The position numbers were made by a program, and so were the translations under genes. The notes beneath the pieces are model-generated. The model was not told where the DNA came from. It saw nothing but the letters and a program-made list of their open reading frames with translations, and made no database searches. Below, one piece after another: positions 1,343 to 23,049 of a DNA stretch of 64,000 bases. Source of the DNA: Thiobacter sp. AK1 (lineage in GTDB: Bacteria > Pseudomonadota > Gammaproteobacteria > Burkholderiales > Thiobacteraceae); NCBI RefSeq assembly GCF_039822265.1, contig NZ_JBAJEX010000001.1, positions 558,001 through 622,000 on the forward strand, in the 5' to 3' direction. Positions within the stretch are counted from its first letter, which is position 1; every line of letters begins with the position of its first letter.

Positions 1343-1695
1343 GAACCGGCCTTTTCGATCCGCGTGATCAAAAGCCCCGCGGCGTCCTTCTCCAGCTGGA
1401 AGCGGACCTTGTCTCCGGGCGCGAGCCCCTCGAGTAGCGCCTTGTCCTTGACCCGGAAGAACATGTTCATGGCCGGCCAGCCGAGCGCAGGAATAGGCTC
1501 GTGGTCGATTCTAACCTTGCCCTGGTCGGCCTTGACCTGGCGCACCACACCGACACCCGCGATGGCGCTTTGGGCCTCGCCTTGGGCCATGTGCCTGCCA
1601 CCCGGCATGTCGCCATGGGCCATGCCGGGCTCGGCCGCTACGGGCAAGGCGATGCCCAGCGCCACCAGGCTTGCGAAGAAGATGGGGAATTTCAT
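1339..1695 (-). CDS. CusF-like periplasmic copper-binding protein
   Basis: 118 residues from the ATG at 1695, which follows an AAGGAGGT Shine-Dalgarno sequence at 1701-1708; longer in-frame starts lack this and run into the upstream gene. A cleavable signal peptide (MKFPIFFASLVALGIALPVAA) is followed by a Met/His-rich linker and a small beta-barrel with the CusF_Ec features: a WPAMNMFFRVKD segment supplying the Trp and Met pair that bind Cu(I)/Ag(I), and a C-terminal GDKVRFQLEK strand. CusF proteins are periplasmic Cu(I) chaperones for CusCBA. No cusCBA is in this window, so here it probably works with CopA, CopB and CopI. Confidence 0.85.
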   Translation of the reverse strand: MKFPIFFASLVALGIALPVAAEPGMAHGDMPGGRHMAQGEAQSAIAGVGVVRQVKADQGKVRIDHEPIPALGWPAMNMFFRVKDKALLEGLAPGDKVRFQLEKDAAGLLITRIEKAGS

Positions 1696-3054: not shown

Positions 3055-4725
3055 TCACGCCACCACGATCTCGCGGAACATGCCGGCATCCATGTGCAGC
3101 ATCAGGTGGCAGTGCCACACCCAGCGGCCCAGGGCATCGGCGGTGACGAGAAAGCTCACGCGCTGCGCCGGCTGCACGGCGATGGTGTGCTTGCGCACGA
3201 GAAACTCACCTTCCGGCGTCTCCAGTTCGTTCCACATGCCATGCATGTGCATGGGGTGGGTCATCATGGTGTCGTTGACGAAGATGACGCGCAGGCGTTC
3301 GTTGTGGCGGAAGTGAATGGGCGTGGCGCGTCCGAATTCCAGCCCATCGATGGACCAGGTATAGCGCTCCATGTTGCCGGTCAGATGCAGCTCGATCTCG
3401 CGGCCGGGGCCACGCGGGTCGAGGGGACCGCCGACGGTATGCAAGTCGGCATAGGTGAGCACACGACGGCCGTTGTCGCGCAAGCCCACACCCGGATCGT
3501 CCAGGTTGGTGCGGGGCGTGTCCACCCGCATGTCCACGCTGGGCCCGTATTCGGTGCGGGCATGATGGGCCCGTGCCGTGCCCGTCATGTCGCCCATCAT
3601 GTCTTCCATTTCCAGCGGCTGCGGCTTGTCCAGCGCCGGCACCGGCGCGCTCAGGCCCGCGCGCGCTGCCAGCGTGGCGCGGGCAAAGCCGCTGCGGTCC
3701 ATGGACTGGGCGAAGATCGTGTAGGCCTCGTCCTTGGGCTCGACGATCACGTCGTAGGTTTCCGCCACGGCGATGCGAATCTCGTCCACCGTCACCGGCT
3801 CCACGTCCTGCCCATCCACCGCCACCACCGTCATGGGCAACCCCGGGATGCGCACGTCGAAGAAGGTCATGGCCCCCGAGTTGATGAAGCGCAACCGCAC
3901 CCGCTCGCCCGGCTTGAACAGCGCCGTCCAGTTGGCCGCCGGCGGCATGCCGTTCACCAGATAGGTGTAGGTGTAAGCCGACACGTCCGCCAGATCCATG
4001 GGGCTCATGCGCATCTCGTTCCACATCTGGCGCTTACCGAGCGCGGCCTTGAGCCCTTCGTTGGCCACGTCGCGGAAGAAATCCAGCACCGTCGCCTGGT
4101 GAAAGTTGTAATAGGCGCTGTGCATCTTGAGCTTGTGCAAGACCCGCATGGGATCTTCGTCGGTCCAGTCCGACAACTGCACCACGTACTCCCGGTCCGC
4201 GCGCACGGGCTGGCCTGCGCGCGGCTCGATGATGATGGCCCCGTACATGCCGGTTTGCTCTTGCATGCCAGAATGGGAGTGGTACCAGTAGGTGCCGCTC
4301 TGCTGCACCTTGAAGCGGTAGGTGAAGGTCTCGCCGGGGCGGATGCCGGGAAAGCTCACCCCCGGTACCCCATCCATCTGATAGGGCAGCAGAATGCCGT
4401 GCCAGTGGATGGAGCTGTCTTCTTTGAGACGATTGGTGACCCGCAGGGTGACGGTATCGCCCTCCTTCCAGCGCAGAATGGGGCCCGGCAGGCAGCCGTT
4501 GATGGTGGTCGCCAGGCGCGGCCTGCCGGTGAAGTTCACCAGCGTTTCCTCCAGCACCAGGTCGAACTCGGTGCCCGAGAGCACCGGCGGATAACCGCTC
4601 CGGGTCGCGGCGGGCACCGCAGCCGACAGACGCGGTAGCGCTAGCATCAGCCCGCCGGCCGCGAGCCCCTGCACGAAACGACGCCGGGAAAGATCCGGTA
4701 ACTCAAAGCCCAAGGCATTCCGCAT
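3055..4725 (-). CDS. copA: CopA multicopper oxidase (periplasmic copper resistance)
   Basis: 556 residues from the ATG at 4725, preceded by AAGGAG at 8-nt spacing; an ATG at 4749 lacks a site. The N-terminus carries a Tat signal (SRRRFVQGL, then a hydrophobic stretch), as expected for a copper enzyme exported folded. All four copper-ligand motifs are present: HWHG near residue 105, HSHSG near 147, HPMHMHG near 505 and the C-terminal HCHLMLHMDAGM. CopA oxidises Cu(I) in the periplasm and can store copper. There is a short Met/His segment (EMEDMMGDMTGTARAHHA) in place of the long MXXMXHXXM repeats of Pseudomonas syringae. It is the first gene of the operon and diverges from the copRS pair. Confidence 0.95.
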   Translation of the reverse strand: MRNALGFELPDLSRRRFVQGLAAGGLMLALPRLSAAVPAATRSGYPPVLSGTEFDLVLEETLVNFTGRPRLATTINGCLPGPILRWKEGDTVTLRVTNRLKEDSSIHWHGILLPYQMDGVPGVSFPGIRPGETFTYRFKVQQSGTYWYHSHSGMQEQTGMYGAIIIEPRAGQPVRADREYVVQLSDWTDEDPMRVLHKLKMHSAYYNFHQATVLDFFRDVANEGLKAALGKRQMWNEMRMSPMDLADVSAYTYTYLVNGMPPAANWTALFKPGERVRLRFINSGAMTFFDVRIPGLPMTVVAVDGQDVEPVTVDEIRIAVAETYDVIVEPKDEAYTIFAQSMDRSGFARATLAARAGLSAPVPALDKPQPLEMEDMMGDMTGTARAHHARTEYGPSVDMRVDTPRTNLDDPGVGLRDNGRRVLTYADLHTVGGPLDPRGPGREIELHLTGNMERYTWSIDGLEFGRATPIHFRHNERLRVIFVNDTMMTHPMHMHGMWNELETPEGEFLVRKHTIAVQPAQRVSFLVTADALGRWVWHCHLMLHMDAGMFREIVVA

Positions 4726-8761: not shown

Positions 8762-10285
8762 ATGGCCACCATCGTCCTCGCCACGCTCAATGCGCGTCAC
8801 ACCCATGCTTCCCTGGGCCTGCGCTATCTGCTCGCCAATCTGGGGCCGTTGGCCGAGCAGGCCACGCTCATGGAGTTCACCATCGCTCGCCCAGTGGCGG
8901 AGGTCGTGGAGGCGATACTCGCAGCCCGGCCACGCATCGTTGGACTGGGGGTCTATATCTGGAACGTGGAGCAAACCAGCAAACTAGTGGCCATGCTCAA
9001 GCGCGTGGCGCCGGAAGTGACGGTCGTGCTGGGCGGTCCGGAGGTCAGCCACGAAACCGAGACACAGCCCATCGTCGATGAGGCCGATTACGTCATCACG
9101 GGCTGGGGTGAGGTGAGCTTTCGCGTCCTCTGTGAAGGCGTGCTTTCCGGCCAGCCCCCCGCGCAGAAAATCATCCCGGGCGAGCAGCCTGCCTTGCGCG
9201 AGCTTTCTCTGCCCTATGCGCTCTACACCGAAGAAGACATCGCCCATCGCTTCCTTTACGTGGAGGCCTCGCGCGGCTGCCCCTACAAATGTGAGTTCTG
9301 CCTGTCCGCCTTGGACAAGACTGCCTGGGCCTTTCCCCAGGACGCCTTCCTCGCCGCGCTCGACGCGCTCTACCAACGCGGCGCGCGGCATTTCCGCTTC
9401 GTCGATCGCACCTTCAACCTCAACGTGAAGTCGAGCCTGGGCATCCTGGAGTTTTTTCTGGCGCGCCTGGACGCACAATTATTTCTCCACTTCGAGGTGA
9501 TCCCGGACCATCTGCCGGACGCCTTGAAGGCGGCGCTCGTGCGCTTCCCGCCAGGTAGCCTGCAACTGGAAATCGGCGTGCAGACTTTCGATCCCACGGT
9601 ACAGGCGCTCATCTCCCGCCGCCAGGACAACGCCCGCACCGAAGAAAATCTGCGTTGGCTCAAGGCGCATACCCATGCCCATCTCCACGTGGACCTAATC
9701 GCCGGTCTGCCGGGAGAGGATCTCTCCGGCTTTGGCGCGGGTTTTGACCGGCTGGTAGCCCTCGCGCCCCACGAGATCCAGGTGGAACTGCTCAAGCGCC
9801 TGCGCGGTGCACCCATCGCGCGTCACACGGAACGCTTTGGGCTTCGCTTCAATCCTCATCCACCCTACGAGATCCTGGCCACCGACCGCATTGGGTTTAC
9901 GGACATGCGTCGGCTGGCGCGCTTCGCCCGCTACTGGGACCTGCTGGGCAACTCGGGCCGATTCCGCCACACCCTGCCGCTCATGTTAGGCGAGGCGCCC
10001 TTCGCGCGCTTTCTCAACTTCAGCGACTGGCTATGGCGGACCGCTGGCCAGACCCACGGTTTTGCACTGGAACGCCTGTTCGCACTGGTGGCCGAAGGGC
10101 TCACGCAGGTGCTCCACATCGCCCCGGAAGCGGTGCGCGCCGCACTGGCGGCCGACTACGCTACGGTCGGCGCAGGGGCGTTGCCCGGTTTCCTGCGCGG
10201 GCCTGCCACCAAGAAACCGGCGAGTCCTGACGCTCGCCGGGCACGCCAGGCCCGACACCGCGCCGCCAGCAGCGAGTGCGGCTGA
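8762..10285 (+). CDS. B12-binding radical SAM protein (DUF4080 type)
   Basis: 507 residues. The N-terminal cobalamin-binding-like Rossmann domain (about 1-140) carries VVLGGPEVSHE but lacks the strict DxHxxG motif. The radical SAM core (about 165-390) has the [4Fe-4S]/SAM motif CPYKCEFC (residues about 178-185). A DUF4080 C-terminal region follows (about 380-480; HEIQVELLKRLRGAPI). The tail from about 480 is Arg/Ala/Pro-rich and basic. Proteins of this kind are widespread in proteobacteria but their substrates are unknown. The gene follows rhlE by 55 bp on the same strand and has no obvious strong ribosome site. Confidence 0.85.
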   Translation: MATIVLATLNARHTHASLGLRYLLANLGPLAEQATLMEFTIARPVAEVVEAILAARPRIVGLGVYIWNVEQTSKLVAMLKRVAPEVTVVLGGPEVSHETETQPIVDEADYVITGWGEVSFRVLCEGVLSGQPPAQKIIPGEQPALRELSLPYALYTEEDIAHRFLYVEASRGCPYKCEFCLSALDKTAWAFPQDAFLAALDALYQRGARHFRFVDRTFNLNVKSSLGILEFFLARLDAQLFLHFEVIPDHLPDALKAALVRFPPGSLQLEIGVQTFDPTVQALISRRQDNARTEENLRWLKAHTHAHLHVDLIAGLPGEDLSGFGAGFDRLVALAPHEIQVELLKRLRGAPIARHTERFGLRFNPHPPYEILATDRIGFTDMRRLARFARYWDLLGNSGRFRHTLPLMLGEAPFARFLNFSDWLWRTAGQTHGFALERLFALVAEGLTQVLHIAPEAVRAALAADYATVGAGALPGFLRGPATKKPASPDARRARQARHRAASSECG

Positions 10286-10489
10286 AGGCTTGCGAGCCTT
10301 GGGGGGTTGGTTCGCCCGCCCAAGGTTTCGCCCAACCCAAGTCGGCCGGCTGCGTGCGCCTCCCCACCGGGGCAGGCGTCGGTGCGCGATTCTTTCGCGA
10401 TCTCGCGCCAACCGGCCACGCCCAGCCGTCTCCGCAGGGAGGGTTGTGTAACGGAAAGTGCGGCTGGGCCACGCGGCTTTGTCGCGCAC
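10286..10489. other. Intergenic region with a long inverted repeat
   Basis: There is no gene here. A short hairpin, AAGGCT-TGCG-AGCCTT, lies right after the radical SAM stop. A perfect 9-bp inverted repeat (GCCCAGCCG at 10420-10428 and CGGCTGGGC at 10461-10469) encloses 32 nt with a smaller CTCC-GCAG-GGAG hairpin. It lies just beyond the minus-strand terminator at 10490-10526. Its function is unknown. Confidence 0.5.
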
Positions 10490-10526
10490 AAAAAAACCCA
10501 CGCATCGTTGGAAACGAGGCGTGGGT
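10490..10526 (-). terminator. Rho-independent terminator
   Basis: On the minus strand the stem ACCCACGC/GCGTGGGT encloses an inner stem CGTT/AACG with a 3-nt loop, and seven T follow (10496-10490). It ends transcription of the candidate RNA and of the GGDEF-EAL gene upstream of it. Confidence 0.88.
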
Positions 10527-10650
10527 CAGGAGGCGCAGAGGATGACTCCGTTCCAGGCGGAGGCCCGAACGGAAGTGGCGGAGGATCCACCACCCCGGGC
10601 AAGTCACCCAAACTTGCCCGTCGCCGGCGGCAAACACAGATTGACCGCCG
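10490..10650 (-). ncRNA. Candidate structured small RNA: five consecutive hairpins ending in an intrinsic terminator
   Basis: Read leftward, the minus strand folds into five hairpins. H1 is CGGCGG/CCGCCG (10650-10625). H2 is a perfect 9-bp stem (10620-10596). H3 is an 8-bp stem with loop UCC (10593-10575). H4 is a 10-bp stem with one bulge and loop CUCC (10572-10548). H5 is an 8 + 5 bp stem with loop UCC (10526-10496) followed by seven U. H3 and H4 each hold a pair that is G-U on the minus strand but A-C on the plus strand, so the minus strand is the RNA strand. Loops and linkers repeat UCC/CCUCC, complementary to Shine-Dalgarno sequences. A TATAAC box at 10718-10713 could give a 5' end near 10705; otherwise this is the 3' UTR of the GGDEF-EAL gene. 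No known RNA family was recognised. Confidence 0.6.
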
Positions 10651-10734
10651 AACGCCATGATCATGACCGAAACCGGAGCGGCCCGGAATTTGCCGATGGC
10701 CATATGCCGAAAGTTATAGGCGGAGGACAGAGAC

Positions 10735-12555
10735 TCAGTGACGGGCCGCAGGATTGCCGAAGGGCAGCAGGTTCACGTAATAGCCCGCCAGGCCCTGCAG
10801 CACGTGCATGCTGCGCCCGTCGCGCAGGAGCCGCTCGAATTCCTGCGCGGGAAGCGGATAGCTGAAAGAATAGCCTTGAATCTCGTTGCAGCCTTGGGCA
10901 CGTAGGAAGCTCAACTGAGCCTCCGTTTCCACCCCCTCGGCCAGCACGTTGAGGCGCAGGTTGCAGGCCATGGCGATGATAGCGGAAACGATGGCGGCTC
11001 CGTCCGAATCCAAGGTGATGTCGCGCACGAAGCTCTGGTCGATTTTCAGAGTGTGGATGGGCAGGCGCTTGAGATAGGAGAGCGAGGAGTAGCCCGTACC
11101 GAAATCGTCGATGGCGATGTGCACGCCCAGGTCGCGCAAACGCTCCAGCGTGGAGGCATTGGCGGCATTGTGTTCCAGCAACACCTCCTCGGTGATTTCC
11201 AGCTCGAGCCATTCAGGCGCAAGCCTGGTCTCGGCCAGGGTGAGCCCCACCATGCCGGCCAGGTCCTTTTGCATGAACTGGCGCGCCGAGAGATTCACTG
11301 CCATGCGCACCGGCGGCAGTCCCAGATCCTGCCAGGAACGGTTCTGGCGGCACGCCTCACGCAGCACCCATTCCCCCACCTGGATAATGATGCCGGTTTC
11401 CTCCAGGATGGCCACGAACTCGCCAGGCGGCACCAGCCCCAAGTCCGGATGGCGCCAGCGCAACAACGCCTCCGCGCCGATCACCCGGCCGGTCCTGAGA
11501 TCCACGCGTGGCTGATAGTGCAGCACGAACTCTTCGCGCCCCAGGGCCCGGCGCAGCGCATTTTCCAAAAGCAGCCGCTCGCGTGCCCGCTGATTAATTT
11601 CCGGAGAATAGAACTGGAAGTTGTTGCGACCGTGTTGCTTGGCCCGGTACATGGCCGAATCGGCGTTACGCAGTAGATGATCCAGATGTTCGCCGTCGTC
11701 CGGATAGAGGGTGATGCCCACGCTGGGCGTGACGAACACCTCGTGCCCACCGAGGTAGAAAGCCTGGCTGAAGGTATCGAGAATCTTTTGTGCCACCACG
11801 GCCGCCGTGTCCCGGTCGGCCACGTCCTCCACGATCACGGTGAACTCGTCACCACCGAGGCGCGCCACGGTATCACAGTCGCGCACGCAGCTGCGTAAGC
11901 GGTCCGCGACGACGCGCAGCAGCTGGTCGCCCACGTTGTGGCCAAGAGTGTCGTTGATGGCCTTGAAGCGATCGAGATCCAGGAACATCACCGCCAGCTT
12001 TTGTTGATAGCGGTCGGCCTGGGCCATGGCATGGGTGAGGCGGTCGCGGAAAAGGGTGCGATTGGGCAGACCGGTGAGCGCGTCGTGATGCGCCATGTGG
12101 CGCATTGCGCGCTCGGTGCGCTTGCGTTGTTCGAGATCGTGACGCAGCCGCTCGTTGACCTGCTCAAGTTCGGCGGTGCGCGCCGCCACCGCTCGCTCCA
12201 GCGCTTCGTTGGCCGCGCTCAGGGCGTTACGGGTCTCTTTCAGCTGGCGCACCAGGGGCAGCCAGCGCCAAAAGCCCAACGCCAGCAGCAGATTGCCCGT
12301 GACCCAGGCGGTGTAGCGGACGACCTCCACCCCTTCCGGGAAGGGCGCTCGCCACAGGGAGTGCCCGGCCTCGCCCCAGGCCAGATTGATTAGATCGCCC
12401 AACAGCACGATCCACAAGCCGGCAAGCAGCATGCCCCAGCCGGGATGCCGGGCCAGGTCGGGCTCGCGCCGGCTCACCCAGAATAGCGCCAGGCCGATGG
12501 TGGTCACCACCGCGGCCTTGATCGCCTTCAGGGCGACCACCTCACCTGCAAACAC
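10735..12555 (-). CDS. Membrane GGDEF-EAL c-di-GMP signalling protein
   Basis: 606 residues. Three N-terminal hydrophobic helices (about 10-27, 40-60 and 83-103) are followed by a coiled coil (about 105-150, RNALSAANEALERAVAARTAELEQ). The GGDEF domain (about 160-325) has an intact RLGGDEF active site and RxxD-like RSCVRDCD just upstream of it. The EAL domain (about 340-590) has GAEALLRW, the metal-binding ELEITE, and the DDFGTGYSS loop, so both cyclase and phosphodiesterase signatures are present. It lacks a recognisable sensor other than the membrane part. Transcription would run through the structured RNA to the terminator at 10490. Confidence 0.93.
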   Translation of the reverse strand: MFAGEVVALKAIKAAVVTTIGLALFWVSRREPDLARHPGWGMLLAGLWIVLLGDLINLAWGEAGHSLWRAPFPEGVEVVRYTAWVTGNLLLALGFWRWLPLVRQLKETRNALSAANEALERAVAARTAELEQVNERLRHDLEQRKRTERAMRHMAHHDALTGLPNRTLFRDRLTHAMAQADRYQQKLAVMFLDLDRFKAINDTLGHNVGDQLLRVVADRLRSCVRDCDTVARLGGDEFTVIVEDVADRDTAAVVAQKILDTFSQAFYLGGHEVFVTPSVGITLYPDDGEHLDHLLRNADSAMYRAKQHGRNNFQFYSPEINQRARERLLLENALRRALGREEFVLHYQPRVDLRTGRVIGAEALLRWRHPDLGLVPPGEFVAILEETGIIIQVGEWVLREACRQNRSWQDLGLPPVRMAVNLSARQFMQKDLAGMVGLTLAETRLAPEWLELEITEEVLLEHNAANASTLERLRDLGVHIAIDDFGTGYSSLSYLKRLPIHTLKIDQSFVRDITLDSDGAAIVSAIIAMACNLRLNVLAEGVETEAQLSFLRAQGCNEIQGYSFSYPLPAQEFERLLRDGRSMHVLQGLAGYYVNLLPFGNPAARH

Positions 12556-12623
12556 AACGCCTCCCTCCGTTGTGACCGCACTTCCCCTGGCGCCTTCAGC
12601 TCGGCTCGGCCAGCGCCCCGTCG

Positions 12624-13120: not shown

Positions 13121-13193
13121 GCCCCGGTAGCTCAGTGGATAGAGCAACCCCCTCCTAAGGGGTAGGTCACACGTTCGATTCGTGTTCGGGGCG
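13121..13193 (+). tRNA. tRNA-Arg (anticodon CCT)
   Basis: The full cloverleaf is visible. The acceptor is GCCCCGG/TCGGGGC, the D-arm contains AGCTCAGTGGATAGAGC, and the anticodon stem is ACCCC/GGGGT with loop CTCCTAA (anticodon CCT at 13154-13156). The T-arm is ACACG-TTCGATT-CGTGT and the discriminator is G. CCA is not encoded. It reads AGG codons. Confidence 0.95.
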
Positions 13194-21122: not shown

Positions 21123-21812
21123 TCAAGCCGGCTTCAGTATCCCGTCTTCCAGGGCCAGCACCCGCTGCGCCCGGGCCGCGAGCTGGGGGTCGTGGGTGAC
21201 GATGACGAAGCTGGTGCCCAGGGTCTCGTTCAGGCTCAGCATCAAATCGAACACCGCAGCCGCGGTCTTGCGGTCCAGGTTACCAGTGGGCTCGTCCGCC
21301 AGCACGCAGGCGGGCTGGGTCACCAGCGCCCGCGCTACCGCCGCTCGCTGACGCTCGCCGCCCGACAATTCCCCCGGCTTGTGTCCCAGGCGGTGCGAAA
21401 GCCCCACGCGGGCGAGCATGTCCTGAGCCGCCGCACGCGCCGTGGCGGAGCTTTGCCGCCGAATCAGAAGCGGCATCATCACGTTCTCCAGGGCGGTGAA
21501 TTCCGGCAAAAGATGGTGGAACTGATAGACGAAGCCCAACGCCTCGTTGCGCAGCCGGCCCCGTTCGGTGTCGCTCAAGGCCTGCATGTCGCGGCCAAGG
21601 ATGCGCACCTCGCCCCGGTCGGCCGTATCCAGCCCGCCCAACAAATGCAGAAGCGTGCTCTTGCCGGAGCCCGATGCGCCAACGATGGCCACCCGCTCAC
21701 CCCGCCCCACCTCGAGATTCACATCCATGAGCACCGGCACCTCCACTCGCCCCTGCCAGTAGGACTTGGCCAGGCCCCGGCAGGTGAGCACGGGCGCACG
21801 CGCTTCACTCAT
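21123..21812 (-). CDS. lolD: LolD, ATPase of the lipoprotein-releasing ABC transporter
   Basis: 229 residues from the ATG at 21812, overlapping the lolC/E stop by 8 nt; the longer frame upstream lies in lolC. The ABC ATPase motifs are Walker [11 protein letters not shown]-loop [12 protein letters not shown] (the HLLPEF stretch is typical of LolD), signature [15 protein letters not shown] and Walker [12 protein letters not shown] with the switch His in IVTHD. It powers release of outer-membrane lipoproteins from the inner membrane to LolA. Confidence 0.93.
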
Positions 21813-23049
21813 AGCGCAGCGCCTCCGCCGGATGGGTGCGCGCCGCGCGCCAGGAAGGGTAGAGGGTCGCCAGCAGCGAAAGCAGGAACGATACCACGCC
21901 GATGGAAATGACGTCGGTGGCCTGCACCTGCGAGGGCAGTTCCGAGATGTAGTACACGTCCTTGGCGAGAAAATGCACGCCGAACAGGCGTTCGATGGCG
22001 GGCACCACCACGTCGATGTGGGAGGCGAGCAGAACACCCCCCACCACGCCGGCAACGGTGCCGATGAGGCCGATTAGCGTTCCCTGGACGATGAAGATCT
22101 TCATGATGCTGGCCGGTGTCGCACCCAGGGTGCGCAGGATGGCGATGTCTGCCTGCTTGTCGGTGACCACCATCACCAGGGTGGAGACGATGTTGAAGGC
22201 AGCCACCGCGACGATGAAGAACATGATCACGAACATCACCCGCTTTTCCATCTGGATGGCGCGGAAGAAATTGGCGTTCTGCTGGGTCCAGTCGCGAATG
22301 AGCAAATTGCCCGGCAACTGGGCGGCGAGCTCCCGGCTCACCTCGGGCGCGGCGAACAGGTCGGCGAGCTTCAGCCGCACGCCGGACACCGCATCCCCCA
22401 TGCGATAAAGGCGCGCGGCATCCTGGATGTGGATGAGGGCCAGCCCCGAGTCATAGACGTTCATGTCCACCTCGAAGATGCCCACCACCGTGAACTGCTT
22501 GAGGCGCGGCAAAATGCCAGCGGGGGTCACAGTGCCCTGGGGCGCGATCACCGTCAACTTATCCCCCACGCGCACCCCCAGAGCCTGGGCGAGTTCGATG
22601 CCGAGCACGATGCCGAAACCACCAGGCTTGAGATCGGTAAGCCGACCCCGTTTCATGTGGCGGCCGATGTCCGCCACCGTGTCCTCCTCCTTTGGCTCGA
22701 TGCCGCGGATGACTGCGCCCTGCACCGCCTGGTCGTAGGACAGCATGCCCTGAGCCATGATGTAAGGGGCCGCGCCCTGCACCCGAGGGTGGGTTTGCGC
22801 CTGGCGGATGACTTCCCGCCAATCTTCGAGCGGCCCTGCGAAGGCGGAGATTTCCACGTGCGAGGCGACACCCAGGATGCGCGAACGCAATTCCTCCTGA
22901 AAGCCATTCATCACCGACAGCACGGTGATGAGCACCACGATCCCCAGCGCGATCCCCAGCGTGGAGATGAGCGAAATGAAGGAGATGAAATGGTTTCGGC
23001 GCTTGGCGCGCATGTAGCGCAGGCCGACGAAGAGTTCGTAAGGTGGCAT
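21805..23049 (-). CDS. lolC: LolC/LolE, membrane subunit of the lipoprotein-releasing ABC transporter
   Basis: 414 residues from the ATG at 23049 ([32 protein letters not shown], abbreviated here; the [15 protein letters not shown] part is diagnostic). One TM helix is near the N-terminus (about 22-45), a MacB-like periplasmic domain follows (about 50-240), and three C-terminal TM helices are present (about 270-300, 315-350 and 375-400). LolC and LolE are hard to separate from sequence and only one such gene is next to lolD; it could be a LolF-type single subunit. Residues further upstream in this frame are not conserved. Confidence 0.9.

Follow-up and report, generated by a model that had tools for sequence, protein, structure and literature searches.

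What is encoded in the short stretch that separates the gene for a c-di-GMP enzyme from its convergent neighbor in Thiobacter sp. AK1, and what might it do? The source genome comprises 2.54 Mb in 32 contigs. The window, which is the whole 64,000-nucleotide stretch that was analysed, includes a GGDEF-EAL gene on the minus strand (10735-12555; Pfam EAL 5.5e-76, GGDEF 2.1e-55) and, convergent to it on the plus strand, a B12-binding radical-SAM gene (8762-10285; DUF4080 by Pfam). Between the two genes, an earlier note on this DNA had described five stems within about 160 nt of the minus strand, the last of them an intrinsic terminator. Five hairpins are indeed present in 162 nt (10650-10489, minus strand): H1 (10625-10650), H2 (10596-10620), H3 (10575-10593), H4 (10548-10572), and a terminator hairpin (10526-10496) that is followed by seven U, so that the hairpin and the U tract together occupy 10489-10526. 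These limits run from H1 to the U tract; the RNA could start near 10712. A simple terminator scan left this terminator unflagged and returned a sole match elsewhere, at 10472-10460.

The fold is more stable than those of dinucleotide-shuffled sequences. The minus-strand RNA from 10705 to 10488 has a minimum free energy of -104.5 kcal/mol, as compared with -83.9 +/- 4.7 kcal/mol for 200 shuffled sequences (z -4.37), and 0 of the 200 equal it. On the plus strand, a somewhat longer stretch (10488-10740) gives a z of -3.0, equaled by 1 of 200 shuffles, and the RNA of a congener, G001, gives a z of -5.0, equaled by 0 of 200. The DNA 3′ of the gene for the c-di-GMP enzyme very probably encodes a genuine structured RNA of small size.

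The stems also covary between the two species. In an alignment made from sequence only, with the structure taken from the window RNA and a 32-nt extension of H4 trimmed from the congener row, 36 pairs are counted and 35 have letters in both species. Seven of these 35 pairs are changed on both sides (H2, four; H3, H4, and the terminator, one each), four are changed on one side (two in H3 and two in the terminator), and none is broken. H1 is left out of the count because the congener hairpin at the same place pairs partly differently. A count this high is reached in 3 of 500 shuffles, and when the partners are slid by 1 to 3 columns, 34.7-45.1% of cells are paired rather than 100%. Every one of the 18 changed bases is a transition; when 18 transitions are placed randomly, all pairs are kept in 0.0365% of 200,000 trials. 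Compensatory changes, which the earlier note had proposed as a check, are thus seen in H2, H3, H4, and the terminator, and the lack of covariation that it had named as evidence against the RNA is not what is found; the pairs covary in one relative only, and two sequences represent a single branch. Its argument from wobble pairing also holds. Strand-specific G-U pairs in the four stems compared (one in the window RNA, three in the congener) become A-C on the plus strand, and because these four pairs would break there, the RNA strand is the minus strand.

The same comparison bears on a reading of the opposite strand as a small protein gene. Opposite the linker that joins H4 to the terminator, the plus strand reads AGGAGG followed, after 8 nt, by an ATG (10542), from which a frame is open (10542-10865). 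This frame is open in both species (107 aa in the window, 71 aa in G001), and in a single BLASTP comparison the two products match over 26 aa at E 1e-4. However, the similarity stops within the residues encoded by a conserved 18-mer (described below), the DNA alignment has gaps of 1 and 32 nt within the frame, and the window product has no Pfam family at E 0.001, while the observed changes track base pairs, and four G-U pairs fit the minus strand only. The frame is judged non-coding, and a protein gene at this place is highly improbable.

Two blocks are 100% identical between the window and the congener: a 19-nt linker just 5′ of the terminator and the 18-mer. The linker, UCAUCCUCUGCGCCUCCUG (10527-10545, minus strand), is identical at 19/19 positions, and the surrounding stretches at 50/74 and 43/80. 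The earlier note had instead drawn attention to repeated UCC and CUCC in the loops. These repeats are present in the window RNA (UCC in the loops of H3 and the terminator, CUCC in that of H4), but their importance is not borne out by the congener, in which the H3 loop is GCC, the H4 loop is unconserved, and the terminator loop differs from UCC; the H2 loop, UUGGGUG, is invariant. As the two blocks are identical while the UCC and CUCC loops vary, the linker is the part constrained as sequence, and this corrects the view of which part of the RNA is conserved. The linker is also the likely pairing region of the RNA. In the window RNA it is predicted to be mostly open (mean unpaired 0.67 to 0.84). 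The full-length RNA of the congener is predicted to have a mostly paired linker (mean unpaired 0.16), and when the 5′ part of the congener RNA is removed, the mean unpaired values are 0.84 and 0.91. By eye, a pseudoknot is possible between GGGUG(A) of the H2 loop (10602-10614) and (U)CAUCC of the linker (10540-10545, minus strand); covariation cannot test this pairing because both parts are invariant.

The 18-mer, CTATAACTTTCGGCATAT (10702-10719, minus strand), is identical at 18/18 positions, with 5/15 and 43/80 in its flanks. It starts 15 nt past the EAL stop codon and includes a TATAAC hexamer; elsewhere in the two genomes it is absent at up to 2 mismatches and occurs at one place with 3. 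It is a possible promoter or processing element, and a conserved block with TATAAC directly after the EAL stop codon favors, as sequence, a promoter belonging to the RNA itself. No clear -35 element was seen, and a sigma-70 scan gave no site. In the congener, an inverted repeat, TGTGAC-N5-GTCACA, lies just 5′ of the TATAAC (L002, 1284-1300, plus strand); none was seen in the window.

The position of the RNA invites a simpler explanation, in which the GGDEF-EAL mRNA simply ends in this structured 3′ UTR and terminator, which protect the end of that message and stop transcription before the radical-SAM gene, with no role in trans. The RNA lies on the strand of the gene and immediately downstream of it in both species, a clear promoter was not found, and terminators that separate convergent genes are commonplace. 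Yet five hairpins are more than a protective end requires, as are a single-stranded linker identical at 19/19 positions and an 18-mer identical at 18/18, and in two genomes of the sister genus the two genes nearly abut without any such stretch. A purely terminal role is doubtful, if by no means far-fetched.

The distribution of the RNA is narrow. A 261-base stretch compared with 100 genomes, the source genome included, matches only the source genome and G001, in which the gene order is the same and the RNA lies on the strand of the GGDEF-EAL gene. In the sister genus, the radical-SAM gene is found in 8 genomes. In two of the eight, a GGDEF-EAL gene is convergent to it, and the two genes nearly abut, too close together for the RNA to fit between them; in the flank examined in the other six, a GGDEF-EAL relative was not found. 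Among 469 proteins related to the radical-SAM protein, the best 80 reach at most 63% identity to it, in a collection that may omit records near the source genome. The linker pattern, with up to 2 mismatches, has 35 matches in 32 genomes among 250 of the order, and among the 30 of these 35 loci that were read and judged by eye, only those of the source genome (G000) and the congener are this RNA.

Searches with a covariance model of the RNA (R1), made with stricter filters, give the same picture. Among 41 relatives, matches at E <=1 occur in 4 genomes, of which the source genome and the congener are real; three other matches (19.0, 18.8, and 15.5 bits) were discarded by alignment. Among 369 genomes of the class, three weak matches (22.8, 22.6, and 22.0 bits) accompany that of the source genome. 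None of them has the linker or the neighboring genes; one (L196) is located in a long reading frame and has a near-identical counterpart in L197. Within the window, the model finds no other strong match, the best being 12.5 bits at 3552-3690. One exact match to the linker in IMG/VR was judged not to be this RNA, and a plasmid search gave one match of 29 bases. The RNA has so far been found in just two species, this one and a sister species, with no homologue seen outside the genus, and it is apparently a real structured sRNA or 3′-UTR RNA confined to the genus; “genus-restricted” is a statement on these searches, since the sets overlap, the model is built from two sequences, and the filters are strict.

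No Rfam family accounts for the RNA at threshold, in keeping with the failure of the earlier note to recognize one. At the gathering threshold, Rfam reports only tRNA in the window (a gene at 13121-13193 on the plus strand, 64.6 bits). At E <=10, the best match for the RNA is sX13 (RF02232), which aligns over the full model but scores 22.6 bits as compared with a cut-off of 50. When sX13 is searched in the source genome, the RNA locus is unlisted and the sole match, of 14.8 bits, lies at another place; the congener RNA has no sX13 match at E <=5. Over 60 genomes, sX13 gives 29 matches, with 16 of the 60 genomes having one at E <=10 and none above the cut-off; nine of the 29 were folded, and two loci were scanned against Rfam.

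The likeness to sX13, an sRNA of the Xanthomonadaceae, lies in several stable stems, a terminator, and C-rich pairing stretches (PMC3771888). The C-rich loops of sX13 act on G-rich sites near translation starts, and its gene adjoins polA (PMC3771888). The differences are as plain. The 4C/5C motifs of sX13 occupy apical loops (PMC3771888), whereas the loops here are UUGGGUG, UCC, CUCC, and UCC, and the conserved C-rich part here is the linker rather than a loop. The RNA does not adjoin polA, as sX13 does in that account: the sole DNA_pol_A match in the genome is on contig 2 (287475-288599), whereas the RNA lies near 568500 of contig 1. The 6-kb neighborhood of polA has no Rfam match at E <=5 and contains one hairpin with a U tract, which is unconvincing. 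On the tests made, the RNA is not a member of sX13, given its low score, its lack of CCCC loops, and the distance of polA. By analogy, it may nonetheless work similarly; repression by sX13 of mRNAs with G-rich sites is Hfq-independent.

Other named systems are more distant. Anti-hemB (RF02837) is likewise an sRNA family with a C-rich loop, occurs in a genome of this order (L033), and is also weakly sX13-like, but at its gathering cut-off of 49.5 bits, and even at E <=10, it has no match at the RNA locus. The L033 locus (1500-1588, minus strand) surfaced through a weak sX13 score and is a clear anti-hemB (68.7 bits, cut-off 49.5); the two Rfam models overlap; L034 is weakly anti-hemB (25.8 bits). 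The RNA scores 12.3 bits with alpha-r7 (RF02342), below the gathering cut-off of 60. In Sinorhizobium, AbcR1/2 and NfeR1 have anti-Shine-Dalgarno pairing stretches, one of which lies between two stem-loops, and AbcR1/2 bear an 8-nt motif, CUCCUCCC, in the loop of the 5′ hairpin (PMC8844928). This motif is absent from 10489-10712 (minus strand), the number of hairpins in AbcR1/2 and NfeR1 is unlike that here, and there is no Rfam match here. The resemblance to alphaproteobacterial anti-Shine-Dalgarno sRNAs that the earlier note had perceived therefore shrinks to a short C-rich stretch, and it is weakened again by the start-site comparison given below.

A different parallel is offered by OppZ and CarZ of Vibrio cholerae, 3′-UTR sRNAs that repress the translation of their own transcript by pairing (PMC7398697). 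The RNA described here is similarly situated at the 3′ end of a gene, on the same strand, and has its own terminator. It is related to OppZ and CarZ by nothing tested, and it may have its own promoter; RNAs of their kind are released by RNase E processing, whereas the 18-mer here could instead be a promoter. Among the titles listed by a limited literature search on UTR-derived sRNAs and c-di-GMP, none names an autoregulated GGDEF-EAL gene.

The linker contains GCGCCUCCU, which is complementary to Shine-Dalgarno sequences. Against 373 predicted start sites drawn from the window and 400 kb of the genome, its mean longest pairing run is 5.70, as compared with 5.82 for shuffled linkers, and 70 of 100 shuffles do at least as well. 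Runs of at least 9 occur at 14 of the 373 sites, as compared with 13.8 for shuffled linkers. For the 44 genes of the window, 86 of 200 shuffled linkers are as good, and the comparison with inner coding stretches gives p 0.27. A general anti-Shine-Dalgarno role is unsupported because the linker pairs no better than its shuffles at start sites.

One candidate target is singled out by its position. The Shine-Dalgarno sequence before the GTG start of the GGDEF-EAL gene is GGGAGGCGU here (12557-12565, minus strand) and AGGAGGCGU in the congener, and each can form 9 bp with the linker, G-U pairs included (two in the window). Among 5,000 shuffled linkers, 9.9% are as good on the window's site alone and 0.94% on the sites of both species, which are orthologous and not independent. 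In two sister-genus GGDEF-EAL orthologues, from genomes without the RNA, the linker-pairing site is absent. The gene is one of the 14 whose start site pairs over a run of at least 9, and it ranks 30th of 373 by energy; GGAGGCG is present in 7 of the 373. On this complementarity, which is suggestive only, the adjacent GGDEF-EAL mRNA is the most attractive candidate target of the linker.

The explanation that we propose, and to which we give about even credence, is that of an sRNA or 3′-UTR RNA whose linker represses G-rich ribosome-binding sites, with the GGDEF-EAL mRNA as the leading target. The RNA would be made from the minus strand just past the GGDEF-EAL gene, whether transcribed from a promoter of its own or released by cleavage of the mRNA at its 3′ end. 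With the hairpins as a scaffold, the invariant 19 nt that link H4 to the terminator would pair through GCGCCUCCU with G-rich ribosome-binding sites, so that translation would be repressed. An hfq gene is present in the genome, and Hfq would probably act at the U tail. If the GGDEF-EAL mRNA is the target, the c-di-GMP enzyme would come under feedback from the RNA, and we offer this loop as a hypothesis. The fuller version, in which a lineage-specific sRNA and the matching Shine-Dalgarno sequence were gained in the genus or lost in the sister genus and create GGDEF-EAL feedback through an anti-Shine-Dalgarno linker flanked by the covarying scaffold hairpins and the terminator, is rather unlikely as a whole. 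If the feedback is real, a c-di-GMP enzyme is controlled by an RNA encoded right behind its own gene, and the sister-genus genomes that have the gene without the RNA offer a natural comparison. Independently of any target, this is a new RNA without an Rfam family and is comparatively well supported.

Alternatively, the RNA could act in trans on targets elsewhere, and the match at the GGDEF-EAL start would be due to chance. Thirteen further start sites of the 373 pair with the linker over at least 9 bases; the GGDEF-EAL site, however, belongs to the adjacent gene, recurs in the congener, and is missing from the two orthologues without the RNA. Distant targets of this sort are a tentative but reasonable possibility.

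Other sites complementary to the linker can be listed. Its 18-nt complement, with up to 3 mismatches, has 25 sites (2 of them the RNA itself) as compared with 3 for the reversed pattern, and among the 24 of the 25 listed there is no convincing start site common to both species. The pattern GGAGGCGC-N2-9-ATG has 100 matches as compared with 17 when reversed, with 28 loci among the matches listed. The reversed pattern is a weak control for both excesses because it ignores codon use. At 21810-21826 of the window (minus strand), GGAGGCGC lies five bases 5′ of an ATGAG start and is a possible linker target; from its sequence, we take the gene that begins there to encode a LolD-like ABC protein. Two of the thirteen start sites mentioned above, at L253 (about 11853, minus strand) and L248 (about 2502, plus strand), pair with the linker over 9 and 10 bp, and these genes are presumably a hybrid sensor kinase and cheZ, respectively.
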